54,492 nucleotides of DNA from a virus. The stretch spans positions 8,945-63,436 of the IMG/VR virus record IMGVR_UViG_3300030098_003745. One strand, written 5' to 3'. The translations under genes and the position numbers were made by a program. Of the stretch, positions 9,899 to 52,447 are shown piece after piece; the first letter of the stretch is position 1; each line of letters starts with the position of its first letter. The notes beneath the pieces were generated by a model. The model did not search any database. It saw only the letters and a list, made by a program, of their open reading frames with translations, and was not told the origin of the DNA.

Positions 9899-12111
9899 TG
9901 TACGAGCAAAGTTTAGTTAAAACTATTGAGCCTATAAAAAAGACTACTATTAGTAGACTTAATAAGGGTAAAAAATGGGAATATGGTTATAACAAAGAGC
10001 ATAATATTATTGTTATATCTAAAACAGGGCAAATAGGTGAAATAATAGAAATACAAAACCTAGCTATTGCTTTACCTAAATTACCTAAAAATATATTTAA
10101 ACACGAAAAAAATAAATGGGTCAAACTTGAACAACCTAAAGAATTATCTCGTCTTAAAAATATATTTGACTGGCGTAATTATCCTGAAGATCAAAAAGAA
10201 CAGTGGTACGACTATATAGACGAAGAGTTTAAAAGAAGAGACGAGGGATTTTGGTTTACAAATAATGGTAAACCAACTTATATAGTAGGAACTCATTATA
10301 TGTATTTACAATGGAGTAAAATCGATGTAGGCGCGCCTGATTTTAGAGAAGCAAATAGACTGTTCTTTATATTTTGGGAGGCTTGCAAAGCAGATAAAAG
10401 ATGCTATGGCATGTGTTATCTAAAGAACAGACGTTCAGGCTTTTCGTTCATGTCATCTGCAGAAACAGTTAATTTAGCTACTATATCAAGTGATAGTAGA
10501 TATGGTATATTATCTAAAACAGGTGCAGATGCTAAAAAAATGTTTACAGATAAAGTGGTGCCTATTAGTATTAATTATCCTTTTTTCTTTAAACCTATTC
10601 AAGATGGTATGGATCGTCCTAAAACTGAGTTAGCTTATAGAGTTCCAGCTAGTAAGTTTACAAGAAAAAAGATTACTGCTAACGAGCAACTAGAAGAAAT
10701 AGAAGGTCTAGATACAACTATAGACTGGAAAAACACTGGTGACAATAGTTATGACGGTGAAAAATTAGCGTTATTAGTACACGATGAAAGTGGTAAGTGG
10801 GAAAGACCGGATAATATATTAAACAATTGGCGTGTTACAAAAACATGTCTTAGATTAGGTAGTAGAATTATAGGCAAGTGTATGATGGGCTCAACGTCAA
10901 ACGCTTTAGATAAAGGTGGTGATAATTTTAAAAAACTATACAATGCATCAGATGTCACTAAAAGAAATAGAAATGGTCAGACAAAATCTGGTTTATACTC
11001 TTTGTTTATCCCAATGGAGTGGAACTACGAAGGATTTATTGACGAGTACGGAGTTCCAGTATTCACTACTCCTGACGCAGATGTGTTTGCCCCAGACGGT
11101 GAACTAATAGATATAGGTGTAGTTGATCATTGGAATAATGAAGCAGAAGGATTAAAAGGTGATCAAGACGCTTTAAATGAGTTTTACAGACAGTTTCCAA
11201 GAACTGAAGAACATGCGTTTAGAGATGAAACTAAAAATTCTATATTTAATCTTGTTAAAATATATGAGCAGATAGACTATAACGAAGAAATGTCTAGAAC
11301 TTTAGGAATTACAACTGGTAATTTTCAATGGGTTAATGGTATTAAAGATTCACAAGTAATATTTTATCCAGATAATAAAGGTAGATTTAAACTTAGCTGG
11401 GTTCCACCCCAGCAATTACAAAATAGAGTGGTACTTAAAAATGGTATTAAATATCCTGGTAATGAACACATGGGAGCGTTTGGTTGCGACTCTTATGATA
11501 TATCAGGAACCGTAGATGGAGAAGGTTCTAAAGGAGCATTACACGGCTTAACCAAGTTTAGTATGGAGGACGCTCCTGCGAACAGCTTTTTTTTAGAATA
11601 CTTATCAAGACCACCTACGGCTGAAATATTCTTTGAAGATGTTTTAATGGCTTTAGTTTTTTATGGCATGCCAATACTTGCAGAGAATAATAAACCTCGT
11701 CTTTTATACTACTTAAGACGTAGAGGATACAGAGGTTTTAGTATGAATAGACCTGATAAAGTTTGGAATAAGTTATCTGTTGCTGAAAAAGAAGTTGGTG
11801 GCATACCAAACTCTAGCGAAGATATAAAACAAGCACACGCAGCGGCAATTGAAATGTATATACAAGATCACGTAGGTATAAAAAAAGATGGTAGCTGTGG
11901 TGATCTTTATTTCAACGAGTTGTTAAATGATTGGGCTAAATTTGATATAAACAGAAGAACAAAGTTTGACGCTACTATAAGCTCTGGTTTAGCTATAATG
12001 GCTAACAATAGACATTTGTACGCGCCAAACGTTAAGGTTGAAAAACCTAAACTAAATATAAATATTTCCAGATATAATAACGCTGGATCTAATTCACAAA
12101 TAATAAAGTAA
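9898..12111 (+). CDS. terL: Terminase large subunit (packaging ATPase/nuclease)
   Basis: This 737-residue protein is the motor that pumps DNA into the prohead and cuts it. The ATPase half shows YIVGTHYMYLQWSKID, a deviant Walker A segment (LKNRRSGFS, 175-183), and a Walker B LALLVHDE (290-297, with Asp296 and catalytic Glu297). The C-terminal RNase H-like nuclease contains AFGCDSYD with Asp531 as a likely metal ligand. The first 70 residues are an extra N-terminal extension. The KNRRSGFS-type Walker A and the size recall terminases of Bacteroidota podoviruses, including crAss-like phages. It lies directly upstream of portal with a one-base gap. Confidence 0.92.
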   Translation: MYEQSLVKTIEPIKKTTISRLNKGKKWEYGYNKEHNIIVISKTGQIGEIIEIQNLAIALPKLPKNIFKHEKNKWVKLEQPKELSRLKNIFDWRNYPEDQKEQWYDYIDEEFKRRDEGFWFTNNGKPTYIVGTHYMYLQWSKIDVGAPDFREANRLFFIFWEACKADKRCYGMCYLKNRRSGFSFMSSAETVNLATISSDSRYGILSKTGADAKKMFTDKVVPISINYPFFFKPIQDGMDRPKTELAYRVPASKFTRKKITANEQLEEIEGLDTTIDWKNTGDNSYDGEKLALLVHDESGKWERPDNILNNWRVTKTCLRLGSRIIGKCMMGSTSNALDKGGDNFKKLYNASDVTKRNRNGQTKSGLYSLFIPMEWNYEGFIDEYGVPVFTTPDADVFAPDGELIDIGVVDHWNNEAEGLKGDQDALNEFYRQFPRTEEHAFRDETKNSIFNLVKIYEQIDYNEEMSRTLGITTGNFQWVNGIKDSQVIFYPDNKGRFKLSWVPPQQLQNRVVLKNGIKYPGNEHMGAFGCDSYDISGTVDGEGSKGALHGLTKFSMEDAPANSFFLEYLSRPPTAEIFFEDVLMALVFYGMPILAENNKPRLLYYLRRRGYRGFSMNRPDKVWNKLSVAEKEVGGIPNSSEDIKQAHAAAIEMYIQDHVGIKKDGSCGDLYFNELLNDWAKFDINRRTKFDATISSGLAIMANNRHLYAPNVKVEKPKLNINISRYNNAGSNSQIIK

Positions 12112-12112
12112 T

Positions 12113-14530
12113 ATGGCATATTCTAATAAAAGTTATTTTCCAAGTCAAACTGTAAGTGATGCTGAAAAGATTAGTTACGACTACGGTATGAAAGTGGCTA
12201 AAGCTATAGAAGCAGAATGGTTTAATGAAGAAAGAAGTGTTAATAGATATATGTCTAATATTAAAGATTTTCATAATCTAAGACTGTATGCTAGAGGCGA
12301 ACAATCAATACAAAAGTACAAAGATGAATTATCTATAAATGGTGATTTATCTTATTTAAATTTAGACTGGAAGCCAGTACCTATAATATCTAAGTTTGTA
12401 GATATAGTTGTTAACGGCATAGCTGAAAGAACTTATGATATAAAAGCTTATTCTCAAGATCCTTATGGTATTGCAAAAAGAACAGAATATATGGAATCTG
12501 TTTTACGAGATATACAAAGTAAAGAGTTTAATGATGCCGCAATGGAAAACTTTAATGCTGACTTGTACGAAAATAAAAAAGAAGAACTTCCAGAAAGTGA
12601 AGAAGAATTAGCTTTACACATGCAGTTAAGCTACAAGCAAGCGGTTGAAATAGCAGAAGAACAAGCGTTACACGTTTTGTTTGAAGGTAATGATTACGAG
12701 TCAATAAAGAAAAGATTTTATTATGATTTAGCGGTTCTTGGTATAGGAGCTACAAAAACAAATTTTACTACTTCAGAAGGCGTTACTATAGACTATGTTG
12801 ATCCAGCTAATTTAGTTTATTCATATTCTGAATCTCCTAATTTTGATGACATATATTACGTTGGTGAAGTAAAATCAATACCTGTAAATGAACTAGCAAA
12901 ACAATTCCCACACTTAACAGAAAGCGACCTTGAAGACATAATGAATAATAAAAATTATAATAGAAATAATTATAATACTAATTATTCTGCAAAACAAGAA
13001 GACAATAATACTATTCAAGTTTTATATTTTAATTATAAAACTTACATGAATGAAGTATACAAAATAAAAGAAACTGGAACTGGAGCAGATAAAATAATAC
13101 CTAAAGACGATTCTTTTAATCCACCACAAAATAAAGAAGGTGATTATTCAAGATTATTAAGATCTATAGAAGTTTTGTATGAAGGCGCTTTAATACTAGG
13201 CACAGATAAATTACTTAAATGGGAAATGGCTACAAATATGATGCGTCCTAAAAGTAATTACACTAAAGTAAAAATGAATTATGCTATTGTAGCGCCTCGC
13301 ATGTATAACGGCAAAATTGACTCGCTTGTAAAACGTATAACTGGTTTTGCTGATATGATACAGCTTACTCATTTAAAACTACAACAAGTAATGTCACGTA
13401 TGGTTCCAGATGGTGTTTATTTAGATGCTGATGGTTTAGCTGAAGTTGATCTTGGCAACGGTACTAATTATAACCCGCAAGAAGCTTTAAATATGTTTTT
13501 TCAAACAGGTTCTGTAATTGGTAGATCATTCACACAAGATGGTGATATGAACCCTGGTAAAGTCCCTATACAAGAAATAACATCTGGTAGTGGAGGTAAT
13601 AAAATGCAAGCGCTTATAGGTAATTATAATTATTATTTACAAATGATAAGAGATGTAACCGGGTTAAACGAAGCTAGAGATGGTAGTACTCCAGATAAAA
13701 ATGCTCTAGTTGGAATACAAAAATTAGCTGCTGCAAATAGTAATACAGCAACAAGACATATATTACAAGCTGGCTTATATTTAACCTCTGAAATTGCAGA
13801 GTGTTTATCACTTAGAATATCTGACATTATTGAGTATTCACCAACAAGAGATGCTTTTATTGAAGCAATAGGAACACATAACGTTGCTACTTTAGAAGAG
13901 ATGAAAAGCTTACATTTGTACGATTTTGGAATATTTTTAGAACTTTCTCCTGATGAAGAAGAAAAAGCAAAGTTAGAAAATAATATTCAAATGGCATTAC
14001 AACAAAAAACTATAGAGTTAGAAGATGCTATAGATGTAAGAGAAATAAGAAATATAAAACTAGCTAATCAACTTTTAAAAATAAGAAGAAGAAAGAAACA
14101 AAATAAAGACCAGGCAATACAACAACAAAACATGCAACAACAAGCAGAGCTTAATCAACAATCAGCACAAGCTGCGGCACAAGCTGACGTTCAAAAAAAT
14201 CAAGCTTTAAACGCTAGTAAAGCAGAGCTTATGCAAGTAGAAGCTCAAATAGCAGCTAACAAAATGATGCAAGAAGTTGCTATGAAAAAAGAATTAATGG
14301 AGTTAGAGTTTCAATACAACATGCAATTAAAAGGTATGGAAGTTGAAGGTATGAAGAGTAGAGAAAAAGAAAAAGAAGATCGTAAAGACGAAAGAACTAA
14401 AATACAAGCTACACAACAATCAGAAATGATTGACCAAAGAAAAAGTGGAAAACCACCTAAAAACTTTGAGTCTTCAGGTAATGATATACTAGGAGGCGGC
14501 ATTGATTTAGGGGGTTTTACACCTAGATAA
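12113..14530 (+). CDS. Portal protein
   Basis: At 805 residues this forms the dodecameric DNA gate at one capsid vertex. Evidence is the position between terminase and scaffold, the helical N-terminus, the conserved block LDWKPVPIISKFVDIVVNGI (about 83-102), the middle beta region VTIDYVDPANLVYSYSES, and the stem-like helices KRITGFADMIQLTHLKLQQV and DVTGLNEARDGSTPD. The last 170 residues are an unusually long Gln/Lys/Met-rich coiled coil (QQQNMQQQAELNQQSAQAAA, about 674-693), ending in Gly-rich GGGIDLGGFTPR; this may build a barrel or contact ejection proteins inside the head. The block resembles portals of crAss-like phages by eye. Confidence 0.88.
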   Translation: MAYSNKSYFPSQTVSDAEKISYDYGMKVAKAIEAEWFNEERSVNRYMSNIKDFHNLRLYARGEQSIQKYKDELSINGDLSYLNLDWKPVPIISKFVDIVVNGIAERTYDIKAYSQDPYGIAKRTEYMESVLRDIQSKEFNDAAMENFNADLYENKKEELPESEEELALHMQLSYKQAVEIAEEQALHVLFEGNDYESIKKRFYYDLAVLGIGATKTNFTTSEGVTIDYVDPANLVYSYSESPNFDDIYYVGEVKSIPVNELAKQFPHLTESDLEDIMNNKNYNRNNYNTNYSAKQEDNNTIQVLYFNYKTYMNEVYKIKETGTGADKIIPKDDSFNPPQNKEGDYSRLLRSIEVLYEGALILGTDKLLKWEMATNMMRPKSNYTKVKMNYAIVAPRMYNGKIDSLVKRITGFADMIQLTHLKLQQVMSRMVPDGVYLDADGLAEVDLGNGTNYNPQEALNMFFQTGSVIGRSFTQDGDMNPGKVPIQEITSGSGGNKMQALIGNYNYYLQMIRDVTGLNEARDGSTPDKNALVGIQKLAAANSNTATRHILQAGLYLTSEIAECLSLRISDIIEYSPTRDAFIEAIGTHNVATLEEMKSLHLYDFGIFLELSPDEEEKAKLENNIQMALQQKTIELEDAIDVREIRNIKLANQLLKIRRRKKQNKDQAIQQQNMQQQAELNQQSAQAAAQADVQKNQALNASKAELMQVEAQIAANKMMQEVAMKKELMELEFQYNMQLKGMEVEGMKSREKEKEDRKDERTKIQATQQSEMIDQRKSGKPPKNFESSGNDILGGGIDLGGFTPR

Positions 14531-43506: not shown

Positions 43507-44628
43507 ATGAGTGACTATATAACAATGGTGAAAAGACTAATAATATTACTAACAACTATACTTTTTGTAGCTTGTTCTGCTCCTAAAAAATGTTGTTCGC
43601 AAACATTTGGAAAAGAAGATGTTAAAAAACTGTTAAAGTTTTCTACATTTTATGCTGCTGTTAACGGTGGTACGTCGCTTTCTGATGTTGATGTATTCTC
43701 TGTAGATAATGGTTTATCTACACAGACTATTTCAACTCCTTATGATTATAATTTTACCATAGGTTTACGTAAGATAGCAAGGTTTGGCTATGAAAATAAA
43801 GCGCAAACATTTTATGATGGAACTGAATCTAATTACAGTGATGCGGCCACTGTAGGTAAAGTCAAAGGAGTTGAATACTTATTTGAAGTTGATTATAAAA
43901 GACAAGAAGGTATAGATTATATGGATCAACATCATTTTATTAGATTTAGCTCAGATGATGGTTGTGCTGATGAAGTTTGTATAAACTTTTTTGCGTTAAA
44001 GCTTGAATATTTAGAAGATGGTTTTGCTGATGTTAAATATTTTGAAGCTTCTGAAAGATATAGACAACGTAAAGGTAAAAATTTATCTTGGAACGTTGGT
44101 TTTGTACATCGTCTTGCAGAACCATACGGTTATAACGCTTTAGATGAGTGGATGTTAAATAATGGTAATATACATTATACTTATTTGGCTTTACAGGAGG
44201 GTTATACGGTGGATGTGTATAGCAACGAATACTATAATCCGGCTGGTGAGTTAGTAGCAACTAGTGCAGAGGTTTGGGAGGCTGTAGTAATACCAGAAGT
44301 TTTATCTGATTATACACAAAAGAAAAGAAACGAACTAAAGAAAACATTGCAACACTCTTTAGTTGTAGGATTTGATTATTACAAATATACTAAACAAACA
44401 TGGACACATGCTTGGGCTAGTTTAATGCCTTGGCATTATAACGATGGTAGTGAGTTTTCATATCATAATTATATAGAAGATGAACAGTGGTATGATTATT
44501 CATTTGGTTTTATATATGGTATAAAGAAAAACAAAAACTTAGGTTATTTTGTAGAAGGTAAATACAACAAGTATTGGAACAGAGAGTGGTACGATTTTAA
44601 ATTAGGTTTAAATTACGTTATATTTTAA
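43507..44628 (+). CDS. Outer-membrane-type lipoprotein, 373 aa
   Basis: The N-terminus MVKRLIILLTTILFVACS is a lipoprotein signal, with Cys23 counted from the first ATG; the start may be the ATG at 43525, which puts the signal nearer the N-terminus. The rest alternates polar and aromatic residues in strand-like runs, for example YEVDYKR-like VEYLFEVDYKRQEG, SLVVGFDYYKYTKQTW and the terminal WYDFKLGLNYVIF. An aromatic last residue after alternating hydrophobics is the beta-barrel assembly signal of outer-membrane proteins. So this could be a barrel with a lipid anchor or simply a signal-bearing barrel. It opens the envelope-gene block after the giant ejection protein. No family name is known to me. 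Confidence 0.65.
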   Translation: MSDYITMVKRLIILLTTILFVACSAPKKCCSQTFGKEDVKKLLKFSTFYAAVNGGTSLSDVDVFSVDNGLSTQTISTPYDYNFTIGLRKIARFGYENKAQTFYDGTESNYSDAATVGKVKGVEYLFEVDYKRQEGIDYMDQHHFIRFSSDDGCADEVCINFFALKLEYLEDGFADVKYFEASERYRQRKGKNLSWNVGFVHRLAEPYGYNALDEWMLNNGNIHYTYLALQEGYTVDVYSNEYYNPAGELVATSAEVWEAVVIPEVLSDYTQKKRNELKKTLQHSLVVGFDYYKYTKQTWTHAWASLMPWHYNDGSEFSYHNYIEDEQWYDYSFGFIYGIKKNKNLGYFVEGKYNKYWNREWYDFKLGLNYVIF

Positions 44629-44629
44629 A

Positions 44630-44911
44630 ATGGCAAAAGAATTAAATGAAGACACAGGTTTTGTATTAAGCATTAAAACTTTAATAGCTATAGGTTTTGC
44701 TATGGCTACGTTAATAAGTATGTGGTTTATGCTTCAGGCAGATATCGCTGAAGCAAAAGAATTACCAGTTATACCACCAGACGAAGTAACTCGTATGGAG
44801 TTTAATATGAAAGATCAGATGATACGTAATACTATCATGGATACGCAAAAAGATGTGCAAGAAATAAAAGCATCTATAGAAAAAATAGAAGATAAGTTAT
44901 ATAATAGATAA
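44630..44911 (+). CDS. Membrane coiled-coil protein (spanin-like), 93 aa
   Basis: One membrane segment at about 12-35 (FVLSIKTLIAIGFAMATLIS and on) is followed by a periplasmic-type charged helix (DQMIRNTIMDTQKDVQEIKA). A single N-terminal membrane helix plus coiled coil is the shape of inner-membrane spanins and also of small holin-associated proteins. It starts one base after the upstream lipoprotein gene and overlaps the secreted thioredoxin-fold gene by one base, so the three are coupled. The lysis role is plausible because the endolysin is in the same transcription direction, but not shown. Confidence 0.55.
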   Translation: MAKELNEDTGFVLSIKTLIAIGFAMATLISMWFMLQADIAEAKELPVIPPDEVTRMEFNMKDQMIRNTIMDTQKDVQEIKASIEKIEDKLYNR

Positions 44912-45237
44912 TGAAAAAATTAATATTTTTATTTATGTTATTGTGTAATATATGTTTTGCACAAATAGAAATAAAACATTTTAATGCTGGGTGGAACAGT
45001 GCAAATGGTGTTAGTTGGTTTATGGAACTTGAAGACTGTAAAACTAAAAGTATTATTGACATAGCTAAAGATACTGATGCACAAACAAAATATAAAATAG
45101 CTGTTGTGCCTACTATTATAATATTTAAAGATGGTGAAGAGGTTGCTAGATTTCAAGCAGACTTATCTTTTAAAATGACAGCAACTAAAGAAGAGGTACA
45201 AGAAGAAATAGATAATCAATTAATGAGTGACTTTTAA
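44911..45237 (+). CDS. Secreted thioredoxin-fold protein lacking CxxC, 108 aa
   Basis: A signal peptide (MKKLIFLFMLLCNICFAQ, cut after FA) leads into IEIKHFNAGWNSANGVSWFM, which matches the strand and W-helix region where thioredoxins hold WCxxC. Here that site has no cysteines (GWNSANG). The cis-proline strand is present as VVPTIIIFKDGEEVARF, then a C-terminal helix. The mature protein keeps one Cys (ELEDCKTK). Without the redox pair it is unlikely to be an oxidoreductase; a binding or structural role in the periplasm is more likely. It overlaps the membrane coiled-coil gene. Confidence 0.65.
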   Translation: MKKLIFLFMLLCNICFAQIEIKHFNAGWNSANGVSWFMELEDCKTKSIIDIAKDTDAQTKYKIAVVPTIIIFKDGEEVARFQADLSFKMTATKEEVQEEIDNQLMSDF

Positions 45238-45239
45238 TT

Positions 45240-45629
45240 ATGCCAGGATCAGAAAGACAAAATAATATGTTTGAAGCATCACCTGTAAAGCAATATGTAC
45301 AGGAAGGACATCCTCATCCTGTTACTAGTTGTGGTAGACGCAGAAATGACGGTTCACCATTATTTAAAAGAAAAAAAAGTAACGAACCTAGAAAAACTAC
45401 AAAAGGCAAAGGTCGTAACTTTAGAACTGTCAAGGAAGGTGCTGGGATGACAGCTAAAGGAGTTAAAGAATATAGACGTAAAAATCCTGGAAGTAAGCTC
45501 AAAACAGCTGTAACAGGAAAAGTTAAACCAGGTAGTAAAGCTGCAAAAAGAAGAAAATCATTTTGCGCTAGATCAAAAAGTTGGACTAGCGAAAGAGGTA
45601 AAGCCGCTAGACGTAGATGGAGATGTTAA
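45240..45629 (+). CDS. Basic phage protein (conserved RKSFCAR motif), 129 aa
   Basis: An Arg/Lys-rich protein with the run EGAGMTAKGVKEYRRKNPGS, then KLKTAVTGKVKPGSKAAKRR and KSFCARSKSWTSERGKAARR. I recall the same motif chain (GMTxKGVxxYRRxNPGSKL...RRKSFCAR) as a domain of unknown function common in marine phages; the exact Pfam name is uncertain to me. The first 30 residues are unrelated. It is the first of a series of small basic genes. A DNA- or virion-binding role is inferred from charge and company. Confidence 0.7.
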   Translation: MPGSERQNNMFEASPVKQYVQEGHPHPVTSCGRRRNDGSPLFKRKKSNEPRKTTKGKGRNFRTVKEGAGMTAKGVKEYRRKNPGSKLKTAVTGKVKPGSKAAKRRKSFCARSKSWTSERGKAARRRWRC

Positions 45630-45642
45630 AAAATAAAAAACT

Positions 45643-45867
45643 ATGAGCAAACAAAAATTAAAAAAAATATCTAAAGAGTTAAAAAAAGCTAGTAATCTAC
45701 ATGCTGGTCAAGCTAAAAAGTTAGATGCTATGTTATCAAAAAAATCACCAGCTTTAAAAAAATTAAGTGCTAGTTGCAAAGCTGCTGCTAAACGTAAATT
45801 TAAAGTATATCCTTCTGCGTATGCTAACATGTGGGCTGCTAAAACGCAGAGACAAGGTAAGTGCTAA
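45643..45867 (+). CDS. Small basic phage protein (YPSAYANMW motif), 74 aa
   Basis: A Lys/Ala-rich helix (LKKISKELKKASNLHAGQAK) is followed by SCKAAAKRKFKVYPSAYANM and WAAKTQRQGKC. The KVYPSAYANMWA block is familiar to me from small basic proteins of many marine phages and from fused domains in other phage proteins. Its function is unknown. The stop overlaps the next start by one base. Confidence 0.7.
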   Translation: MSKQKLKKISKELKKASNLHAGQAKKLDAMLSKKSPALKKLSASCKAAAKRKFKVYPSAYANMWAAKTQRQGKC

Positions 45868-46139
45868 TGTATAGTCAAGGTAATAATCCTTTTAAAAAAC
45901 GTATGGGTGATTTTAAACACTCAGACGCACCAGATGCTAAAGGTAAGTTTAAAAGTTTATCAGCATCAAGTTTAGCTAGTTGGATGATTAAATCACGTAA
46001 AGGTAATTTGTCTAGAATTATTAGTAGTTTAAATCAACAAGTAGTTTTTAATAGAGGTAAAAACCCTAGTTACGCGGCTAAAATGCGTAAAACAATGGAT
46101 ATAGTTAGAAAACGTTTAGGTAAGAAAAAAGATAAGTAA
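45867..46139 (+). CDS. Small basic helical protein, 90 aa
   Basis: I start it at the ATG at 45867, which overlaps the previous stop, rather than at the GTG two codons earlier. The protein is helical and basic, with KSLSASSLASWMIKSRKGNL and SRIISSLNQQVVFNRGKN, and ends RKRLGKKKDK. I recall SASxLAxWxIxSR blocks from marine phage small proteins but cannot name a role. Its last base is the first of the next gene. Confidence 0.65.
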   Translation: MYSQGNNPFKKRMGDFKHSDAPDAKGKFKSLSASSLASWMIKSRKGNLSRIISSLNQQVVFNRGKNPSYAAKMRKTMDIVRKRLGKKKDK

Positions 46140-46594
46140 TGGCATATAGAGGTGTAATGAAGGCTAGAATAAAAAAGCTTTACGGTGGTGATGTTACCGT
46201 TAGTAAAGCTAGAAAGTTAAAAGCTAGAAAAGATGCTACACCTAGAGATAAACAATTAGCAAACTGGTTTATTAACATGCAAACAAATAGGCCTAAGTCA
46301 CCTATAGTAAAACGTAAAGATCCAGTAGTTGGTACTGGTAAAAAACCAAAAGGTAGCGATAGACGTTTATATACTGATGAAAACCCAAAAGATACTGTAA
46401 GCATTAAGTTTGCTACTCCTAGTGATGCTAGGAAGACCGTAGCTAAAGTTAAACGAATAAAAAAGCCTTATGCACGTAAGATACAAATACTAACTGTAGG
46501 TGAGCAAAGAGCTAAGGTTATGAAAAAAACACAAGTAGCTGCAATATTCAAAAAAGGTAAAGAAGCAATAAGAAATGCAAGAAAAAATGTTTAA
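46139..46594 (+). CDS. Basic protein, 151 aa
   Basis: It is Lys/Arg-rich throughout, with a helical N-terminus (VMKARIKKLYGGDVTVSKAR; KLKARKDATPRDKQLANWFI) and a Pro/Lys middle (RPKSPIVKRKDPVVGTGKKP). The final 50 residues look alpha/beta (ARKIQILTVGEQRAKVMKKT). The function is unknown to me; charge suggests contact with nucleic acid or an acidic surface. It overlaps the PAP2 gene by 20 bases in another frame. Confidence 0.6.
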   Translation: MAYRGVMKARIKKLYGGDVTVSKARKLKARKDATPRDKQLANWFINMQTNRPKSPIVKRKDPVVGTGKKPKGSDRRLYTDENPKDTVSIKFATPSDARKTVAKVKRIKKPYARKIQILTVGEQRAKVMKKTQVAAIFKKGKEAIRNARKNV

Positions 46595-47129
46595 AGATTT
46601 TGACATATCAAGTTTTAAAAAGATGAAGCCACCAGGTGATAATACATTTGATACTTCACAAGAAATTAAAGCACTTGCTAAAATACCTTTAAAAAAAGAG
46701 TTTGTAAAGAAGTTTGATAATATAGAGTCCGCGTTTGCTAAAACAGCTAAAGATAACAACGTAGAAGACTACGATAAAAAAATACCAGCTAAGCTTATTA
46801 AAGAGTCAGCACCAATAATATTAGAATTAAAAAAATATTTTAATAGGCCAAGACCAAAAGTATTAGCTAAAAAAATGAATATAAAAATGAAAGATTATGA
46901 AATGTCTTCAATGAAAACACCTTCATATCCTTCAGGCCACTCTGTTCAAGGTATATTAATAGCTAAAGTGCTAGGTAGTAAATACCCTAAAGCTAAATCA
47001 GCTTTTACTAAAACAGGTGAAAACATATCTTATAGTAGACGAGTTGCCCACGCTCACTATAAGTCAGATAGTAAAATGGGCGAAAAATTAGGTAACTCAA
47101 TGTTTAAACATATAAAAAACAAAATTTAA
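46575..47129 (+). CDS. PAP2-family phosphatase
   Basis: All three signature motifs of the PAP2/acid phosphatase superfamily are present in order: KKYFNRPRP (86-94, K-x6-RP), PSGH (119-122) and SRRVAHAHYKSD (154-165, SR-x5-H-x3-D), with His122 and His161 as the catalytic pair. These enzymes remove phosphate from lipids such as phosphatidate or undecaprenyl pyrophosphate, or from small phosphate esters. At 184 residues it is short and has no clear membrane helices or signal, so it looks like a soluble form. The start is at 46575, with an alternative ATG at 46587. Embedded in small basic genes, it is unusual for a phage. Confidence 0.8.
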   Translation: MQEKMFKDFDISSFKKMKPPGDNTFDTSQEIKALAKIPLKKEFVKKFDNIESAFAKTAKDNNVEDYDKKIPAKLIKESAPIILELKKYFNRPRPKVLAKKMNIKMKDYEMSSMKTPSYPSGHSVQGILIAKVLGSKYPKAKSAFTKTGENISYSRRVAHAHYKSDSKMGEKLGNSMFKHIKNKI

Positions 47130-47130
47130 A

Positions 47131-47460
47131 ATGAAAAAAGATCCTGCAATGAAAATGAAAAAAGCTCCGGCTAAAATGGTAAAAAAATCACCAGCTAAAA
47201 AAGACGAAGGTTTAAAAGCTTTAGCTGCTAAAAATCCAAACTTACAGTATAAAGAGTCTATGGCTAAAATGAAAAAATCTATGGCTAAGCTTAAAAAAGA
47301 TGAAAAGTCTGCTATGGCTATGAAGAAAAAAGGAGCTATGATGATGAAAAAAGCTTCTGCTATGACTATGAAAACTAAAAAGTCTATGGCTACTATGAAA
47401 AAGAAGTCTGCTATGATGATGAAAAAAATGGCAGCTGCTAAAATGATGAAAAAGAAGTAA
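47131..47460 (+). CDS. Lys/Met-rich low-complexity protein, 109 aa
   Basis: By hand count 37 of 109 residues are Lys and about 22 are Met. It is built from degenerate short repeats of the form (A/S)MxMKKK, for example KSAMMMKK and KGAMMMKKAS. An early Pro/Ala/Lys part (MKMKKAPAKMVKKSPAKK) resembles histone-tail-like DNA binders. A small folded-looking patch remains (LAAKNPNLQYKES). The sequence repeats mean slippage-driven growth is likely. It may condense or coat DNA, or bind acidic proteins. It has one-base overlap with the next gene. Confidence 0.65.
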   Translation: MKKDPAMKMKKAPAKMVKKSPAKKDEGLKALAAKNPNLQYKESMAKMKKSMAKLKKDEKSAMAMKKKGAMMMKKASAMTMKTKKSMATMKKKSAMMMKKMAAAKMMKKK

Positions 47461-47744
47461 TGTACGTTCAGAAGAACAATCCTATAAAGAAGGTTAAGCG
47501 AACAAAAGCCAAGGGTGGAGGTACTACTAAAGTATGTCTACCTAAGGCTAAAATCGCTAGCATGAGTAAAGCTGAAAGACAAGCCGTTATACGTGCCAAA
47601 CGTAAAGCTGGTAAAGCTGGCAAGTACAAACGTTCTTCTAAAAGCAATGTAACTGGTACTAGTAGTGGTGGTAGTTTGAAAACATGGGTTAAACAAGACT
47701 GGAGACAAGTAGGTAATCCAAGTAAAAAATGTGGTGAAAAATAA
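47460..47744 (+). CDS. Small basic phage protein, 94 aa
   Basis: A Lys-rich N-terminal arm (MYVQKNNPIKKVKRTKAKGG) leads to KVCLPKAKIASMSKAERQAV, a basic helix (IRAKRKAGKAGKYKR), and the end TWVKQDWRQVGNPSKKCGEK. Endings of the (T/K)WVxxDWxxVGxxxKCGE type are a recurring phage motif in my memory, of unknown function. Both cysteines may pair. It overlaps its upstream neighbour by one base and the next gene also by one. Confidence 0.65.
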   Translation: MYVQKNNPIKKVKRTKAKGGGTTKVCLPKAKIASMSKAERQAVIRAKRKAGKAGKYKRSSKSNVTGTSSGGSLKTWVKQDWRQVGNPSKKCGEK

Positions 47745-48253
47745 TGAAAAAATTATTATTAATAATATTAATTTTATTTTCTTTTAAATCGCCAGCACAA
47801 ATTAGTCTTTGTGACTCTATTGATATATATACTACAATTTTTACAGACACTCATTATGTTGAGTTTGAAACAAATTTTAAAAAAAGTAATTTTCCTCAAA
47901 TATTTTATATACAACAATACGTTTGGAACGTTAATAATTGTATTATAGGAGAAGACTCAATAGCAGACTTTTATGCAGATACAGTATTAATTTATAACAT
48001 TGATTTAAAAATTATTTGGTGTGATACTAATTTTTGTTATTCTTGCAACTTTTATGACACTTTGTTTTGGAGTAATGGTTTTTGGACTTTATCATCTAAA
48101 ATAATAAATACTCCTGTAATACCTACGTTTATAAAAGATATAAAAGACAAAACACAAGAAAATAAGATGTACGATTTATACGGTAGAGAAATATTTAAAA
48201 TACTACCTAATAAAATTTATATTAGAAACAATAAAAAATATATAAAATTATGA
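47744..48253 (+). CDS. Secreted protein with probable type IX sorting tail, 169 aa
   Basis: A signal peptide (MKKLLLIILILFSFKSPAQ) precedes a beta-rich domain with an Ile/Tyr/Phe-rich pattern and four cysteines (residues about 20-125). The C-terminus reads KMYDLYGREIFKILPNKIYI then RNNKKYIKL. The string YDLYGREI, then P-N-K-I-Y-I-R, matches the C-terminal sorting domain of proteins exported by the type IX secretion system of Bacteroidota (D-x-x-GR-x-I... G/N-x-Y-x-x). This machinery is found only in hosts of that phylum. The gene is followed directly by a Cys-rich microprotein and a second protein with a similar tail, so they look like a unit. Confidence 0.7.
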   Translation: MKKLLLIILILFSFKSPAQISLCDSIDIYTTIFTDTHYVEFETNFKKSNFPQIFYIQQYVWNVNNCIIGEDSIADFYADTVLIYNIDLKIIWCDTNFCYSCNFYDTLFWSNGFWTLSSKIINTPVIPTFIKDIKDKTQENKMYDLYGREIFKILPNKIYIRNNKKYIKL

Positions 48254-48348
48254 AAGAAAAAATATGTAAGTTTTTATGCGAATTAACTAATGGTGTTGTG
48301 TGCTTTGGTTGGTGTTGTATAGATGGTAAATGTTGTAAGTGTAAATAA
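48250..48348 (+). CDS. Cysteine-rich microprotein, 32 aa
   Basis: The 33-codon frame starts in the ATGA overlap with the preceding stop and ends in a TAA that shares one base with the next ATG, exactly filling the gap between two secreted-protein genes. Eight of 32 residues are cysteine (positions 6, 10, 18, 22, 23, 28, 29, 31), with the core GWCCIDGKCCKCK. No signal peptide is clear, though residues 8-20 are hydrophobic. It may bind metal or form a small disulphide knot. The precise fit between neighbours argues it is real; function is unknown. Confidence 0.6.
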   Translation: MKEKICKFLCELTNGVVCFGWCCIDGKCCKCK

Positions 48349-51107
48349 TGAAAAATTTAATTTTAATATTATTATTACCTATATTTAGCTTTAGTCAAGT
48401 TATAAATACTTTTCCGTGGATACATGACTTTGAAAATAATATACCTTTAGAGCAAGATACAAATGATTTTGGTGATTGGGTATTAAATCAAGGGCCAACA
48501 AGCTCTTTTAATACTGGGCCTAGTGGTGATCACACGACTGGTAGTGGTATTTATTTTTATATAGAATCATCAACTCCAAACTTTCCTAATAAAGTATTTA
48601 CAATATATACACCTAGATTTGATGTATCACAAACGCCTGGTAAAGTATTATCTTTCTGGTATCATATGTATGGCGCTGCTATAGGTGATTTAGAAATAGG
48701 CGTGTTAGATAGCGCTGGTTATACAGCGTTAGACACTATATCTGGAAACCAAGGAAACCAATGGCAATTAGCTTATTACCCAATAATATCAACAACACCG
48801 TTTAAAATAAAATTTAAAGCTGTTACAGGATCAAGTTATACTAGTGATATAGCCATAGATGATATAATGATTAGTGATCCATATACAGTTATATATGGAT
48901 GTACTGATAGTGTTTCATCTAACTATGATTCTACAGCAACGCATGATAATAATACTTGTATATACTATTATGGTTGTATTGATCCTAACGCTACTAATTA
49001 TAACCCGTGGGCAAATGTAGATGATGGTTCATGCGTGCAAAACGTAGCGTGTGATTCTGCTACACAATCTTTAATAGAAGTATCTATAAAGCTAGATAAC
49101 TGGCCAAATGAAACATCTTGGGAAGTTTTAGCAAATGGCAATGTAATATATTCCGTGCCTTCAAACACTTATGACTACACACAAACGGGACAAATAGTTA
49201 GAACACAAGTATGTATACCTGTTGGTGATACAATAGTGTTTACACTTAATGACACTTATGGTGATGGTATTGGTGGTGGATCTGTAGTTGGTAGTTGTTT
49301 AGTAACTAATATAGATTGTGAAGATACTTTATTTTTATTAAATCCACCAAACTTTGGTAATACAATATCTTCTTTGCCTTATGTATCTGATACTTGTAAC
49401 AATGATACTATAATATATGGTTGTACAAATGAAGATTATTTAGAATATGATTCACTTGCAACAGTAGATGATAGTAGCTGTGTGACATTAGCTACTTATG
49501 GCTGTACTGATCCAACACAATTTAATTACGATCCTAATGCTGATCGTATGTTACTAACATCGCCTTGTGTTTATGATTTGATATTGTATGACGATGGTGG
49601 TGATTCTTGGGGAGCTTGTTGGTTAGGCGTTGAGCACGGTGATTCTTTATGGCAGTTTAAAATAACTAACAATGGTGTTTATTCTGATACGTTTAAATTA
49701 GTTCTTAATTCTAGTGATGAGGTTTATTTCTATTACTTTGAAATACCTACACCTCAACAAAATCCACAGCAGTTAGATATACAAACAATACAAAACTCAT
49801 TTAAACTAGAAAATAGTTACGGAGTTATAATACACCAAGGTAATAATCCTTGGCCTGGTCCAAATGAAAATAAATTAAGAAATTATAAAAGTGCTTTAGA
49901 TGTATACGAAGCGCAACCATATTGTGGTAATGAGTGTGTGCCAGTAGTAACAGGATGTATGGATGCACTAGCATACAACTATAATGCTTTAGCAAATACT
50001 AATAGTGCTTGTTATTATAATCCTGGTTGTACTAATGCTGGTTACTTAGAATATTATAATCAAGGTTTTGTAGCAGATATAGATGATGGAAGCTGTAGTA
50101 TTTTAGCTGAGTTTGGATGTACAGATCCAACTGCTTTTAATTATGATCCAAGCGCTAATGTAGATAATGGTGGTTGTGTGCCAGTTGTTATTGGCTGTAT
50201 GATACCAGGATCTTTTAATTATAATGCGCAGGCAAATACGCCTGGTAATTGTATACCTATTGTATATGGTTGCACGTCACCTATAGCGTTAAATTATAAT
50301 CCAAATGCTAATACAGATGATGGTAGTTGTATAGGTATAGTTTATGGTTGTACAGATCCAAACGCTTTTAACTTTAATCCTAATGCTAACGTAGACGATA
50401 GTTCTTGTGTGGCTATTATTTATGGCTGTACAGATGCTACTATGTTTAATTATAATCCAAGTGCTAATACAGATAACGGATCTTGTATTCCTTTTGTTTA
50501 TGGATGTACAGATTCAATAATGTTCAACTATAATCCACTAGCAAATGCTGACAACGGTTCTTGTATACCTTTCATACATGGTTGCACGGATCCTTCTATG
50601 CTTAATTATAACCCGCAAGCAAACACGGAGGATTTTAGTTGTATTCCTTATATTTATGGGTGCATGGATAGTTTGGCTCTTAACTATAATTCACTTGCTA
50701 ACACGGATAACGGTTCGTGTATCGAAGTGGTTGTGGGTTGCATGGATCCAAGCGCGTATAACTACGACTCAATTGCTAACACTAACGATTCTATATCTTG
50801 TTTATATAGTGCTAATTGTGTTACTGGTCCAGGCATTCCCTATTGGTTAAACGATCCTTGCTATGCTTGGGTGTTATCAGTAGATGATTATTGTTGTGAA
50901 AACGAGTGGGATACTGTATGTCAAGCGACATATGATTACTGTGATGGTACTTGGTCTGGACCATTGTTAAGTAGAGTTCAACCGCAAGAAAACAAACTAA
51001 TAATGATTACAGATTTATTAGGTAGACCAGTAAAAGAAAATAAAAATCAAGTACTGCTTTACATTTATAGTGATGGAACAGTAAAAAGAAAACTAATAAA
51101 AGAATAA
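48348..51107 (+). CDS. Secreted adhesin-like protein: MAM domain, 15 GCTDP repeats, type IX sorting tail
   Basis: A signal peptide (MKNLILILLLPIFSFSQ) is followed by a MAM-like domain (about 20-178) with FPWIHDFENN, GPSGDHTTGSG and LSFWYHMYG. Then come about 15 copies (183-818) of a 22-residue unit of the form YGCTDPxAxNYNPxANxDDG followed by SC, interrupted by two beta domains (about 230-355, with ETSWEVLANG and DTYGDGIGGG; about 405-530, with YDDGGDSWGACW). The last 45 residues hold MITDLLGRPVKENK, VLLYIYSDGTVKRKLIKE, which fits the type IX secretion C-terminal domain. Such proteins are exported and anchored on the surface of Bacteroidota. Repeats bring many cysteine pairs. In a phage it may be a surface adhesin made by the infected cell. 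Confidence 0.8.
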   Translation: MKNLILILLLPIFSFSQVINTFPWIHDFENNIPLEQDTNDFGDWVLNQGPTSSFNTGPSGDHTTGSGIYFYIESSTPNFPNKVFTIYTPRFDVSQTPGKVLSFWYHMYGAAIGDLEIGVLDSAGYTALDTISGNQGNQWQLAYYPIISTTPFKIKFKAVTGSSYTSDIAIDDIMISDPYTVIYGCTDSVSSNYDSTATHDNNTCIYYYGCIDPNATNYNPWANVDDGSCVQNVACDSATQSLIEVSIKLDNWPNETSWEVLANGNVIYSVPSNTYDYTQTGQIVRTQVCIPVGDTIVFTLNDTYGDGIGGGSVVGSCLVTNIDCEDTLFLLNPPNFGNTISSLPYVSDTCNNDTIIYGCTNEDYLEYDSLATVDDSSCVTLATYGCTDPTQFNYDPNADRMLLTSPCVYDLILYDDGGDSWGACWLGVEHGDSLWQFKITNNGVYSDTFKLVLNSSDEVYFYYFEIPTPQQNPQQLDIQTIQNSFKLENSYGVIIHQGNNPWPGPNENKLRNYKSALDVYEAQPYCGNECVPVVTGCMDALAYNYNALANTNSACYYNPGCTNAGYLEYYNQGFVADIDDGSCSILAEFGCTDPTAFNYDPSANVDNGGCVPVVIGCMIPGSFNYNAQANTPGNCIPIVYGCTSPIALNYNPNANTDDGSCIGIVYGCTDPNAFNFNPNANVDDSSCVAIIYGCTDATMFNYNPSANTDNGSCIPFVYGCTDSIMFNYNPLANADNGSCIPFIHGCTDPSMLNYNPQANTEDFSCIPYIYGCMDSLALNYNSLANTDNGSCIEVVVGCMDPSAYNYDSIANTNDSISCLYSANCVTGPGIPYWLNDPCYAWVLSVDDYCCENEWDTVCQATYDYCDGTWSGPLLSRVQPQENKLIMITDLLGRPVKENKNQVLLYIYSDGTVKRKLIKE

Positions 51108-51111
51108 AATT

Positions 51112-51513
51112 ATGGGATTAAAACCAACATTAACACTAAATGACACTTCAACTTTTAGTGATACAATAAATTTTTCAATAACAGATGATTTAACAGTAAC
51201 AGCTCCAGCTCAAAGTTTATCTACTATTGTGGCAACTGCTACTGGTAGTCAATCTGTAATAATACCAGCAAGTACTGCTATTAGGTATCTTTTTGTTAGG
51301 CACACTGGAACTACAGATGGCTCAACAGGTACAACACGACAAGTAGATGTTGAATTTACTACTGACGAAGCAATTGCTCGTTTAAGTGCTGGTGAATTTC
51401 TTTTTATGCCAGTTCATCATGCAGAGGCAGATGTAGGCGTTCAATTACACGTGCAGCATTCTAGTTCTTCTGACGTAGTTTTACTAGAGTATGCTTACTG
51501 GGCAAAAGGATAA
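51112..51513 (+). CDS. Putative virion surface protein, 133 aa (triplet member 1)
   Basis: A Thr/Ser-rich beta protein starting MGLKPTLTLNDTSTFSDTIN. It shares with the next two genes the pattern of a strand, a conserved ARLSAGEFLFMPVHH block (IGRLYAGDWMFSPW and IGRLYGGDWMLIPW in the others) and a final strand pair, here VVLLEYAYWAKG. The three look like tandem paralogues. No signal peptide is present, so a virion decoration or tail-tip role is more likely than secretion. Confidence 0.65.
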   Translation: MGLKPTLTLNDTSTFSDTINFSITDDLTVTAPAQSLSTIVATATGSQSVIIPASTAIRYLFVRHTGTTDGSTGTTRQVDVEFTTDEAIARLSAGEFLFMPVHHAEADVGVQLHVQHSSSSDVVLLEYAYWAKG

Positions 51514-51552
51514 AATAAAAACAATTAATTAAAAACAACAAAAATAAAAATT

Positions 51553-51996
51553 ATGGCAACAACAACGGCAAGCTTAAGTATTTCCAGTAGTGATTTGCAA
51601 CCTGGAAACGTACTTAATATTAACGCTAGCTCAACGTTAATGAAGACTGGATTAACAGAAGGTCTTGAAATTGTAGATATGGGTAAAAGCGAGTTAACAG
51701 TAGCTAACTCACATAAAGCTCTTCATGAAGCTTTAGGAACTGCAGGTACAGCAAATTGGATATATTTATGTAATAACGCTACAGATGATACTTTTTATAT
51801 AGAAGTAGTTTTACATGATACAGTAATAGGTAGATTATATGCTGGCGACTGGATGTTTAGTCCTTGGAGTCAAAGCGATGGTGATGCAGAATGGTCTATA
51901 GAAGCTGAAGGTGGTACTTGTCCTTACGAGTACGCGTTTTTTAAATCTTCTTATGTATTACCTGATAGTACTCAAGCAGATTCTCTTAATCCATAA
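51553..51996 (+). CDS. Putative virion surface protein, 147 aa (triplet member 2)
   Basis: The second of three related genes. It has SLSISSSDLQPGNVLNINAS, the hallmark block IGRLYAGDWMFSPWSQSD (about residues 95-112) and an acidic end (STQADSLNP). The middle contains WIYLCNNATDDTFYIEVVLH. It has an A-rich leader and its own ATG, with a 39-base gap before it. The role is inferred to be structural, from composition and repeats. Confidence 0.65.
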   Translation: MATTTASLSISSSDLQPGNVLNINASSTLMKTGLTEGLEIVDMGKSELTVANSHKALHEALGTAGTANWIYLCNNATDDTFYIEVVLHDTVIGRLYAGDWMFSPWSQSDGDAEWSIEAEGGTCPYEYAFFKSSYVLPDSTQADSLNP

Positions 51997-52024
51997 TAAT
52001 TAACAATAAATAAATAAATATAAA

Positions 52025-52447
52025 ATGGCAACAATAAATGCAAGTGTTAATATTAGTAGTGATATAATGAGTTATCCTATTCGTATTAATAAATCAATGA
52101 CAATGAAAAAAGCTGGATCATGTCACGGCTTAGAAGAAACAAGTGGTTTAAATCATAAAAAAGTAGCATCAGAAACACGTTTTTTACTTTTTAGTAATGC
52201 GGACGCTTCAGCATCAGGTGCTTCTAAAGTATATATTAGAAACACAGGGTCAAGTAAAACAGATTATTTTGTAATAGGTTATGGTGAAGATTTAGGAGAT
52301 ACCACTGTTGAAACTATAGGTAGACTTTATGGTGGCGACTGGATGCTTATTCCTTGGGACGCTGTAGCGGCTACATCGCATGATATATATGCTTTTTCTA
52401 GTACAGCAGAAGCTATGACTATAGAGTTTATGGCTTTTACAGAGTAA
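52025..52447 (+). CDS. Putative virion surface protein, 140 aa (triplet member 3)
   Basis: The third related gene. It begins MATINASVNISSDIMSYPIR, close to MATTTASLSISSSDLQ of its neighbour, and carries ETIGRLYGGDWMLIPWDAVA near residue 97 and the end AMTIEFMAFTE. A middle segment SKVYIRNTGSSKTDYFVIGY parallels the FYIEVVLH part of member 2. It lies two bases before the endolysin gene. Confidence 0.65.
   Translation: MATINASVNISSDIMSYPIRINKSMTMKKAGSCHGLEETSGLNHKKVASETRFLLFSNADASASGASKVYIRNTGSSKTDYFVIGYGEDLGDTTVETIGRLYGGDWMLIPWDAVAATSHDIYAFSSTAEAMTIEFMAFTE

Follow-up and report, generated by a model that had tools for sequence, protein, structure and literature searches.

Cargo of the type IX secretion system (T9SS) is directed by C-terminal domains (CTDs), with type A tails leading to anchoring or release according to the CTD (PMC10202324, PMC12618676), and in Flavobacterium johnsoniae it is the tail that decides the final location of the cargo (PMC12618676). 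Phages with such cargo are on record: 'Cryophage' (PMC7468147, 2020) carries three T9SS-tailed genes, for which hijacked export, competition or superinfection exclusion has been proposed, and crAss-like phages possess open reading frames (ORFs) with T9SS sorting domains, namely crAss-BACON and its neighbours (PMC6949934, 2019). In phages of Porphyromonas gingivalis, proteins adapted to the host Sec/SPI route, with Q at +1, have been reported (PMC10367356). Prevotella intermedia possesses short CTDs of about 40-55 amino acids (aa), with a motif B, a basic motif E and three predicted strands, beside long CTDs, and it is given as the only species reported to have both kinds (PMC11969387, 2025). 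We analysed a window of 54,492 bp out of a 63,436-bp virus record (IMG/VR IMGVR_UViG_3300030098_003745), in which two genes at 47744-51107, encoding proteins of 169 and 919 aa, start like genes of exported proteins and end in short tails. An initial annotation had read these ends as probable type IX sorting tails and had held that no phage system of this kind was described; the latter statement is contradicted by the T9SS cargo of Cryophage and the crAss-like phages. The family of the 919-aa protein is nevertheless an unusually clear case. What appears to be new here is the repeated exchange of the tail, together with a short, unmodelled class of sorting tails common to phages and marine Flavobacteriales.

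The 919-aa protein and the tails of its phage relatives

The gene of the 919-aa protein (48348..51107, plus strand) encodes an apparent signal peptide, MKNLILILLLPIFSFS (48348..48395), followed by Q as in the Q-rule pattern of its relatives; a MAM domain at residues 34-176 (48447..48875); 15 units of the GC[T/M/I] type with two more domains interspersed (48897..50801, boundaries approximate); a conserved Cys-rich pre-tail domain (50817..50942), which ends in VDDYCCENEWDTVCQATYDYC and is followed by the tail-exchange point; and a putative short sorting tail, the last 40 aa, composed of ITDLLGRPVKENKNQVLLYIYSDGTVKRKLIKE and the residues preceding it (50985..51104), recognised by profiles, host scans and predicted strands. 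The initial annotation had the coordinates, the signal-like starts and the C-termini of both genes right, and the MAM-like domain that it named is borne out by PF00629 (E 2.3e-23; 83.2 bits against a gathering cut-off of 26.4) and by MAM structures, such as 8yt7 and 5l73, matched by Foldseek with the 919-aa model. Its figure of about 15 GCTDP repeats holds for the number of units, of which only 4 read exactly GCTDP; the protein has 44 Cys. Both N-termini are Sec-signal-like and fit the Bacteroidetes Q-rule (PMC5837995) under a generous text pattern; among 65 relatives of the 919-aa protein the pattern applies to 63. Of the remaining two, L011 shows SQ on inspection by eye, and L020, in which the cargo gene is broken into two frames (9989-12873), is an internal fragment. 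The tail is modelled with three strands (884-888, 902-907 and 912-916; pLDDT of the block 73-80), the number published for the short CTDs of P. intermedia.

Relatives of the 919-aa protein, which the initial annotation had suggested looking for in related phages, are encoded on 78 IMG/VR contigs, a count that leaves out the record of the window itself and includes a near-identical copy of it (L001). Seventy-four of them end in one of two tails, 52 in the short tail and the other 22 in a longer one with YPNP; two more are cut before the end and two share the repeats only. Short and YPNP tails start at the same place, directly after the common pre-tail domain. The YPNP tails are canonical: TIGR04183 matches 21 of 21 distinct ones, the cut-offs of TIGR04183 and PF18962 are passed by all seven full proteins scanned (of 22), and the YPNP profile matches the solved CTD chains 8glk and 8glj and gingipain CTDs. 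Among the cargo contigs of at least 45 kb (n=45), 30 carry a short tail, 15 a TIGR04183 match over the cut-off and none both, three sub-threshold TIGR04183 matches being set aside in this count; 44 of the 45 records have a single tail gene each, and the remaining one (G371) has two short tails. A text-pattern search of the phage loci, with a pattern that omits the tail type of the 169-aa protein, detected no short-tail or YPNP protein outside the 919-aa family.

The two tails appear to have been exchanged many times. A tree made quickly from 71 distinct bodies, 49 of them with short and 22 with YPNP tails (five rows were dropped as duplicates or identical), needs at least 16 changes of tail type, close to the mean of 18.9 for shuffled labels; strong branches force 12 of these changes. 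Because bodies may recombine internally, the tree was repeated with only the 115 aa adjoining the tail, where the labels are somewhat clustered (2 of 500 shuffles were as low). Over these 115 aa, identity within pairs that differ in tail type reaches 93.9% (L061/L068), followed by L031/L028 with 92.2% and two pairs with 90.4%. If such natural exchanges on near-identical bodies are what they seem, they provide ready pairs for decoding sorting tails.

Short tails in bacterial genomes

A scan of species genomes with the tail only gave 153 confirmed places. The best 80 of these, kept as 78 loci, are all in Bacteroidota (71 in Flavobacteriales, 1 in Saprospirales and 6 without an order name), and in all 78 the tail lies 0-6 aa from the stop. 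The profile built from phage tails has between 1 and 51 matches per genome in 23 tail-bearing genomes, every one of which contains the PorV family and TIGR04183 cargo, with SprA present in 19. Ten tail-bearing host proteins that were scanned include GH16, PHB-depolymerase, Kelch, LRR and PKD proteins; in a second set of ten no curated model covers the tail, and one of them (L088) has a sub-cut-off TIGR04183 match further in. Short tails occur in 2 of 148 evenly drawn Bacteroidota genomes, both of them seeds, and in 69 of 196 genomes of the order; the class is thus narrow and not phylum-wide. With the tail removed, 31 of 59 host short-tail proteins form one BLAST group and the rest fall into 16 other groups, so that the cases are fewer than 59 independent ones. 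Thirty PHB-depolymerase homologues were judged by eye: 24 have short-tail-like ends, three have no tail (L271, L272 and L280), two are cut or partial (L274 and L277) and one (L281) has a type A look, by eye alone; a stricter script pattern returned 10 short and 0 YPNP ends for the same 30.

Turned back on the window, a profile made from 76 host tails matches the frame of the 919-aa protein with 64.8 bits (E 1.5e-19); no other frame among the 640 of the window exceeds 6.7 bits, and 20 shuffled sets reach 8.7 at most. The 169-aa protein (gene 47744..48253, plus strand), which has an apparent Sec signal and a short Cys-containing body, ends in a second type of short tail (last 31 aa, MYDLYGREI...YIRNNKKYIKL, 48158..48250). 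With its profile, A3, C-terminal tails turn up in 8 of the 23 short-tail host genomes and in none of 20 other Bacteroidota genomes, and a profile from nine host tails of this type (two identical) matches the 169-aa frame with 25.7 bits (E 1.7e-7), the next of the 640 frames having 7.2 bits and the best shuffle 10.9. Patterns or profiles built from phage sequences had been used to collect the host tails behind both profiles, and the two window tests are therefore not fully independent. Few relatives of the 169-aa protein exist, and seven of their sequences were aligned; support for its tail is thinner than for the 919-aa gene. A structure model of this protein was set aside as too poor to judge (pLDDT 55).

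Both tail types carry features of short CTDs. Motif B, a Gly followed by Arg or Lys, is an invariant GR in 40 aligned short tails (of 47 distinct), all 8 tails of the second type have G with R or K after it, and a basic residue near the end, corresponding to motif E, is present in both. The short tails are supported as host-type sorting tails, and for the two window proteins the type IX reading depends on orthologues with canonical tails and on the host genomes.

Proposed export and alternative explanations

We consider it likely, on the sequence comparisons above, that both genes encode phage-made cargo for the host T9SS. Each protein would enter the periplasm through Sec with its Bacteroidota-style signal peptide, the host-type tail would deliver it to the T9SS (SprA/PorV), and the T9SS would pass it across the outer membrane, either to the surface, anchored, or into the medium, released. 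With its MAM domain and Cys-rich repeats, the 919-aa protein may form an adhesin-like coat or a decoy on the infected cell. Its purpose would most likely be receptor masking or superinfection exclusion, a suggestion that we make tentatively; adhesion or aggregation comes second and is doubtful. The exclusion hypothesis has an analogy in Llp of phage T5, an Escherichia coli phage, a lipoprotein that acts at the surface and blocks the receptor without a T9SS.

Several results weigh against this assignment. The initial annotation had named beforehand a lack of match to TIGR04131/TIGR04183 as refuting it, and neither window protein is matched by these two models or by PF18962 (NCBIfam, Pfam). Of its claim, the host-type sorting tails stand, through orthologues and host genomes, and the expected model matches do not. 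When 40 short tails were compared with TIGR04183, only 2 matched (best E 0.12), and the best Pfam match was a stray LtuB in 3 (best E 0.007). When the profiles of the short and the long tails were compared, the probability was 4.5% (E 0.009), too weak to establish homology, so that their equivalence rests on tail exchange and host use; no solved structure was found with the short-tail profile (best E 0.6). The glycine of motif D (GxY) is missing from the 919-aa tail, and in the second type, where G precedes xMYI in 7 of 8 tails, the 169-aa copy of the window has N. SprA was searched for in the 23 tail-bearing genomes and not found in 4. A possible lipobox is seen in L011, L013 and L035, and the AlphaFold model of the 919-aa protein is modest overall (pLDDT 62.8). 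The tree of the 115 aa next to the tail needs 14 changes, of which only 3 are forced by strong branches. A search of 50,697 phage records matched nothing beyond the Cys repeats, and there is therefore no cultured system.

Some of these points would suit Sec export followed by another outer-membrane route or a stay in the periplasm, the short tail being a fold-capping or anchoring element and not a T9SS signal: the window proteins match no T9SS model, the motif D glycine is missing, and SprA is missing from 4 of 23 genomes. We regard this as quite unlikely, since near-identical bodies exchange the short tail with type A, up to 51 copies per genome sit on differing secreted proteins, and PorV together with TIGR04183 cargo occurs in every one of the tail-bearing genomes. 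That the 919-aa protein is instead a part of the virion, a fibre or decoration assembled in the cytoplasm whose ends are incidental, is suggested by the place of its gene in the late region, which has large structural genes on one side of it and the M15 endolysin on the other, and by the presence of similar Cys repeats in a gene of Synechococcus phage S-CAM3 that bears the annotation 'virion structural protein' and in very long, signal-less ORFs of related contigs (L026:899-5254, L027:3-7331, L035:790-5268 and L076:2924-11965). These long ORFs, however, have neither the signal nor sorting-tail ends (L026, L027 and L035 bear the cargo gene as well, L076 does not), whereas the 919-aa family has an apparent signal peptide with the Q-rule in nearly all relatives and, on 22 contigs, a C-terminal sorting domain of the canonical type A. 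We know of no use of a type A sorting domain in virion assembly, and we judge a virion part unlikely.

A host gene captured recently and without function for the phage is most improbable. Such Cys repeats are common in Flavobacteriales, where the body of the 919-aa protein matches 101 of 196 genomes (E 1e-10), mostly over the repeats. Against capture, the family is found on 74 contigs, with a single tail gene per record in nearly all of the long ones, and at least one other window gene has a homologue within the flank of 76 of the 78 loci, in agreement with the initial annotation, which took these for real phage genes. Conserved neighbours are an outer-membrane protein (gene at 43507; homologues in 60 of 78 loci), a transmembrane protein (44630; 63), a thioredoxin-like protein (44911; 64) and the M15 endolysin (34), and these conserved phage surroundings speak against a fresh capture of host DNA. 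Only one match from a bacterial genome is near full-length (51%, L284); it adjoins phage-gene homologues and is probably phage DNA. Contig 32 of bacterial genome G265 (L292) has homologues of the cargo gene and of the outer-membrane, transmembrane and thioredoxin-like protein genes; this contig is probably phage DNA binned with the genome or integrated in it.

Retaining export by the host T9SS as the preferred explanation, we put forward a broader proposal, on which we are nearly evenly divided. Marine Flavobacteriales would use an undescribed short class of T9SS tails beside type A, and their phages would carry one adhesin-like cargo gene with a tail repeatedly exchanged between the classes, so that recombination re-addresses the protein (anchored versus released, for example) or tunes it to the host. 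If this holds, abundant marine bacteria have phages that remodel the surface of the infected cell through the T9SS, a system confined to Bacteroidota and relatives, and current T9SS models miss a part of the marine Flavobacteriales secretome that amounts to between 1 and 51 proteins in each of the 23 genomes examined.

Phage surroundings and comparison with known systems

The three genes at 47744-48253, 48250-48348 and 48348-51107 are located in the late region of the window and overlap by start and stop codons (TAATG at 47742-47746, ATGA at 48250-48253 and TAATG at 48346-48350). The middle one (48250..48348, plus strand) encodes a Cys-rich microprotein of 32 aa, MKEKICKFLCELTNGVVCFGWCCIDGKCCKCK, which lies exactly between the two cargo genes, as had been noted from the start, and overlaps both. 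Its family, of 25-37 aa and resembling MKxKICKW..AITFGLVCFNWC.CC, comprises 18 distinct sequences from 25 phage loci; in several loci it ends exactly at the start of the cargo gene and in others it lies kilobases away.

The terminase of the window has its best match in MW202828 (64% identity) and is about 46% identical to those of Flavobacterium elemo phages, with Cellulophaga phages also among the closest; a portal protein and the M15 endolysin are encoded as well, and a crAss muzzle C-terminal domain (PF25729) is matched. A phage GroEL is located at 1424-2989 (PHROG 5725, E 7.5e-137). Upstream of the cargo genes, the outer-membrane protein gene (43507-44628) has a lipoprotein-like start and a beta-barrel-like end and may encode an additional phage surface protein, and the exported thioredoxin-like protein (44911-45237) has W-N-S-A-N at the expected CxxC site, CxxC being absent from ten sampled homologues too. 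A series of small basic Lys-rich proteins follows at 45240-47744, the one at 45240 matching PHROGs without known function, and 46575-47129 matches the PAP2-superfamily phosphatases (PF01569, E 1.7e-8). Three small proteins neighbour the 919-aa gene downstream (51112-52447), with homologues in 21-32 of the 78 loci; one has a weak Hoc-like decoration match (E 0.02).

The literature covered, which leaves out most subscription papers and all bioRxiv preprints, yielded no description of tails being exchanged and none of short tails in marine Flavobacteriales. PHROGs matches of the 919-aa protein are weak and partial and belong to families of unknown function. Searches with its whole modest model matched MAM structures and viral relatives in long, poorly superposed alignments. 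Deposited viral relatives are UniProt A0A218MM41 ('Secretion system C-terminal sorting domain-containing protein', uncultured virus) and proteins of Virus NIOZ-UU157, with 28-64% identity in the structure search. The study of P. gingivalis phages agrees with the window proteins in the Q-rule, and T9SS or 'type IX' is absent from its main text (PMC10367356).

The type A family (TIGR04183/PF18962) is present on orthologous phage proteins in the same position and leaves the window proteins unmatched. The short CTDs of P. intermedia resemble the short tails in length, in motifs B and E, in the three predicted strands and in their coexistence with long CTDs; they differ in motif D, whose glycine is described as absolutely conserved there and is lacking from the 919-aa tail (PMC11969387). 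Both kinds of CTD occur in 23 of the 23 genomes examined here, as against P. intermedia alone in that paper. The crAss-like phages share with the window the presence of sorting-domain proteins, and the crAss muzzle match adds to the likeness, whereas their bodies consist of BACON repeats, and neither tail exchange nor short tails are mentioned in the parts of PMC6949934 at hand. Cryophage likewise shows Bacteroidota phage genes with T9SS sorting domains; these are of type A and belong to a single cryoconite phage, whose endoglucanase, GH39 protein and PA14 protein carry them (PMC7468147). The family described here differs in its MAM/Cys-repeat bodies, in its occurrence on 74 contigs and in a tail that is of type A in some members and of an unmodelled short form in others.

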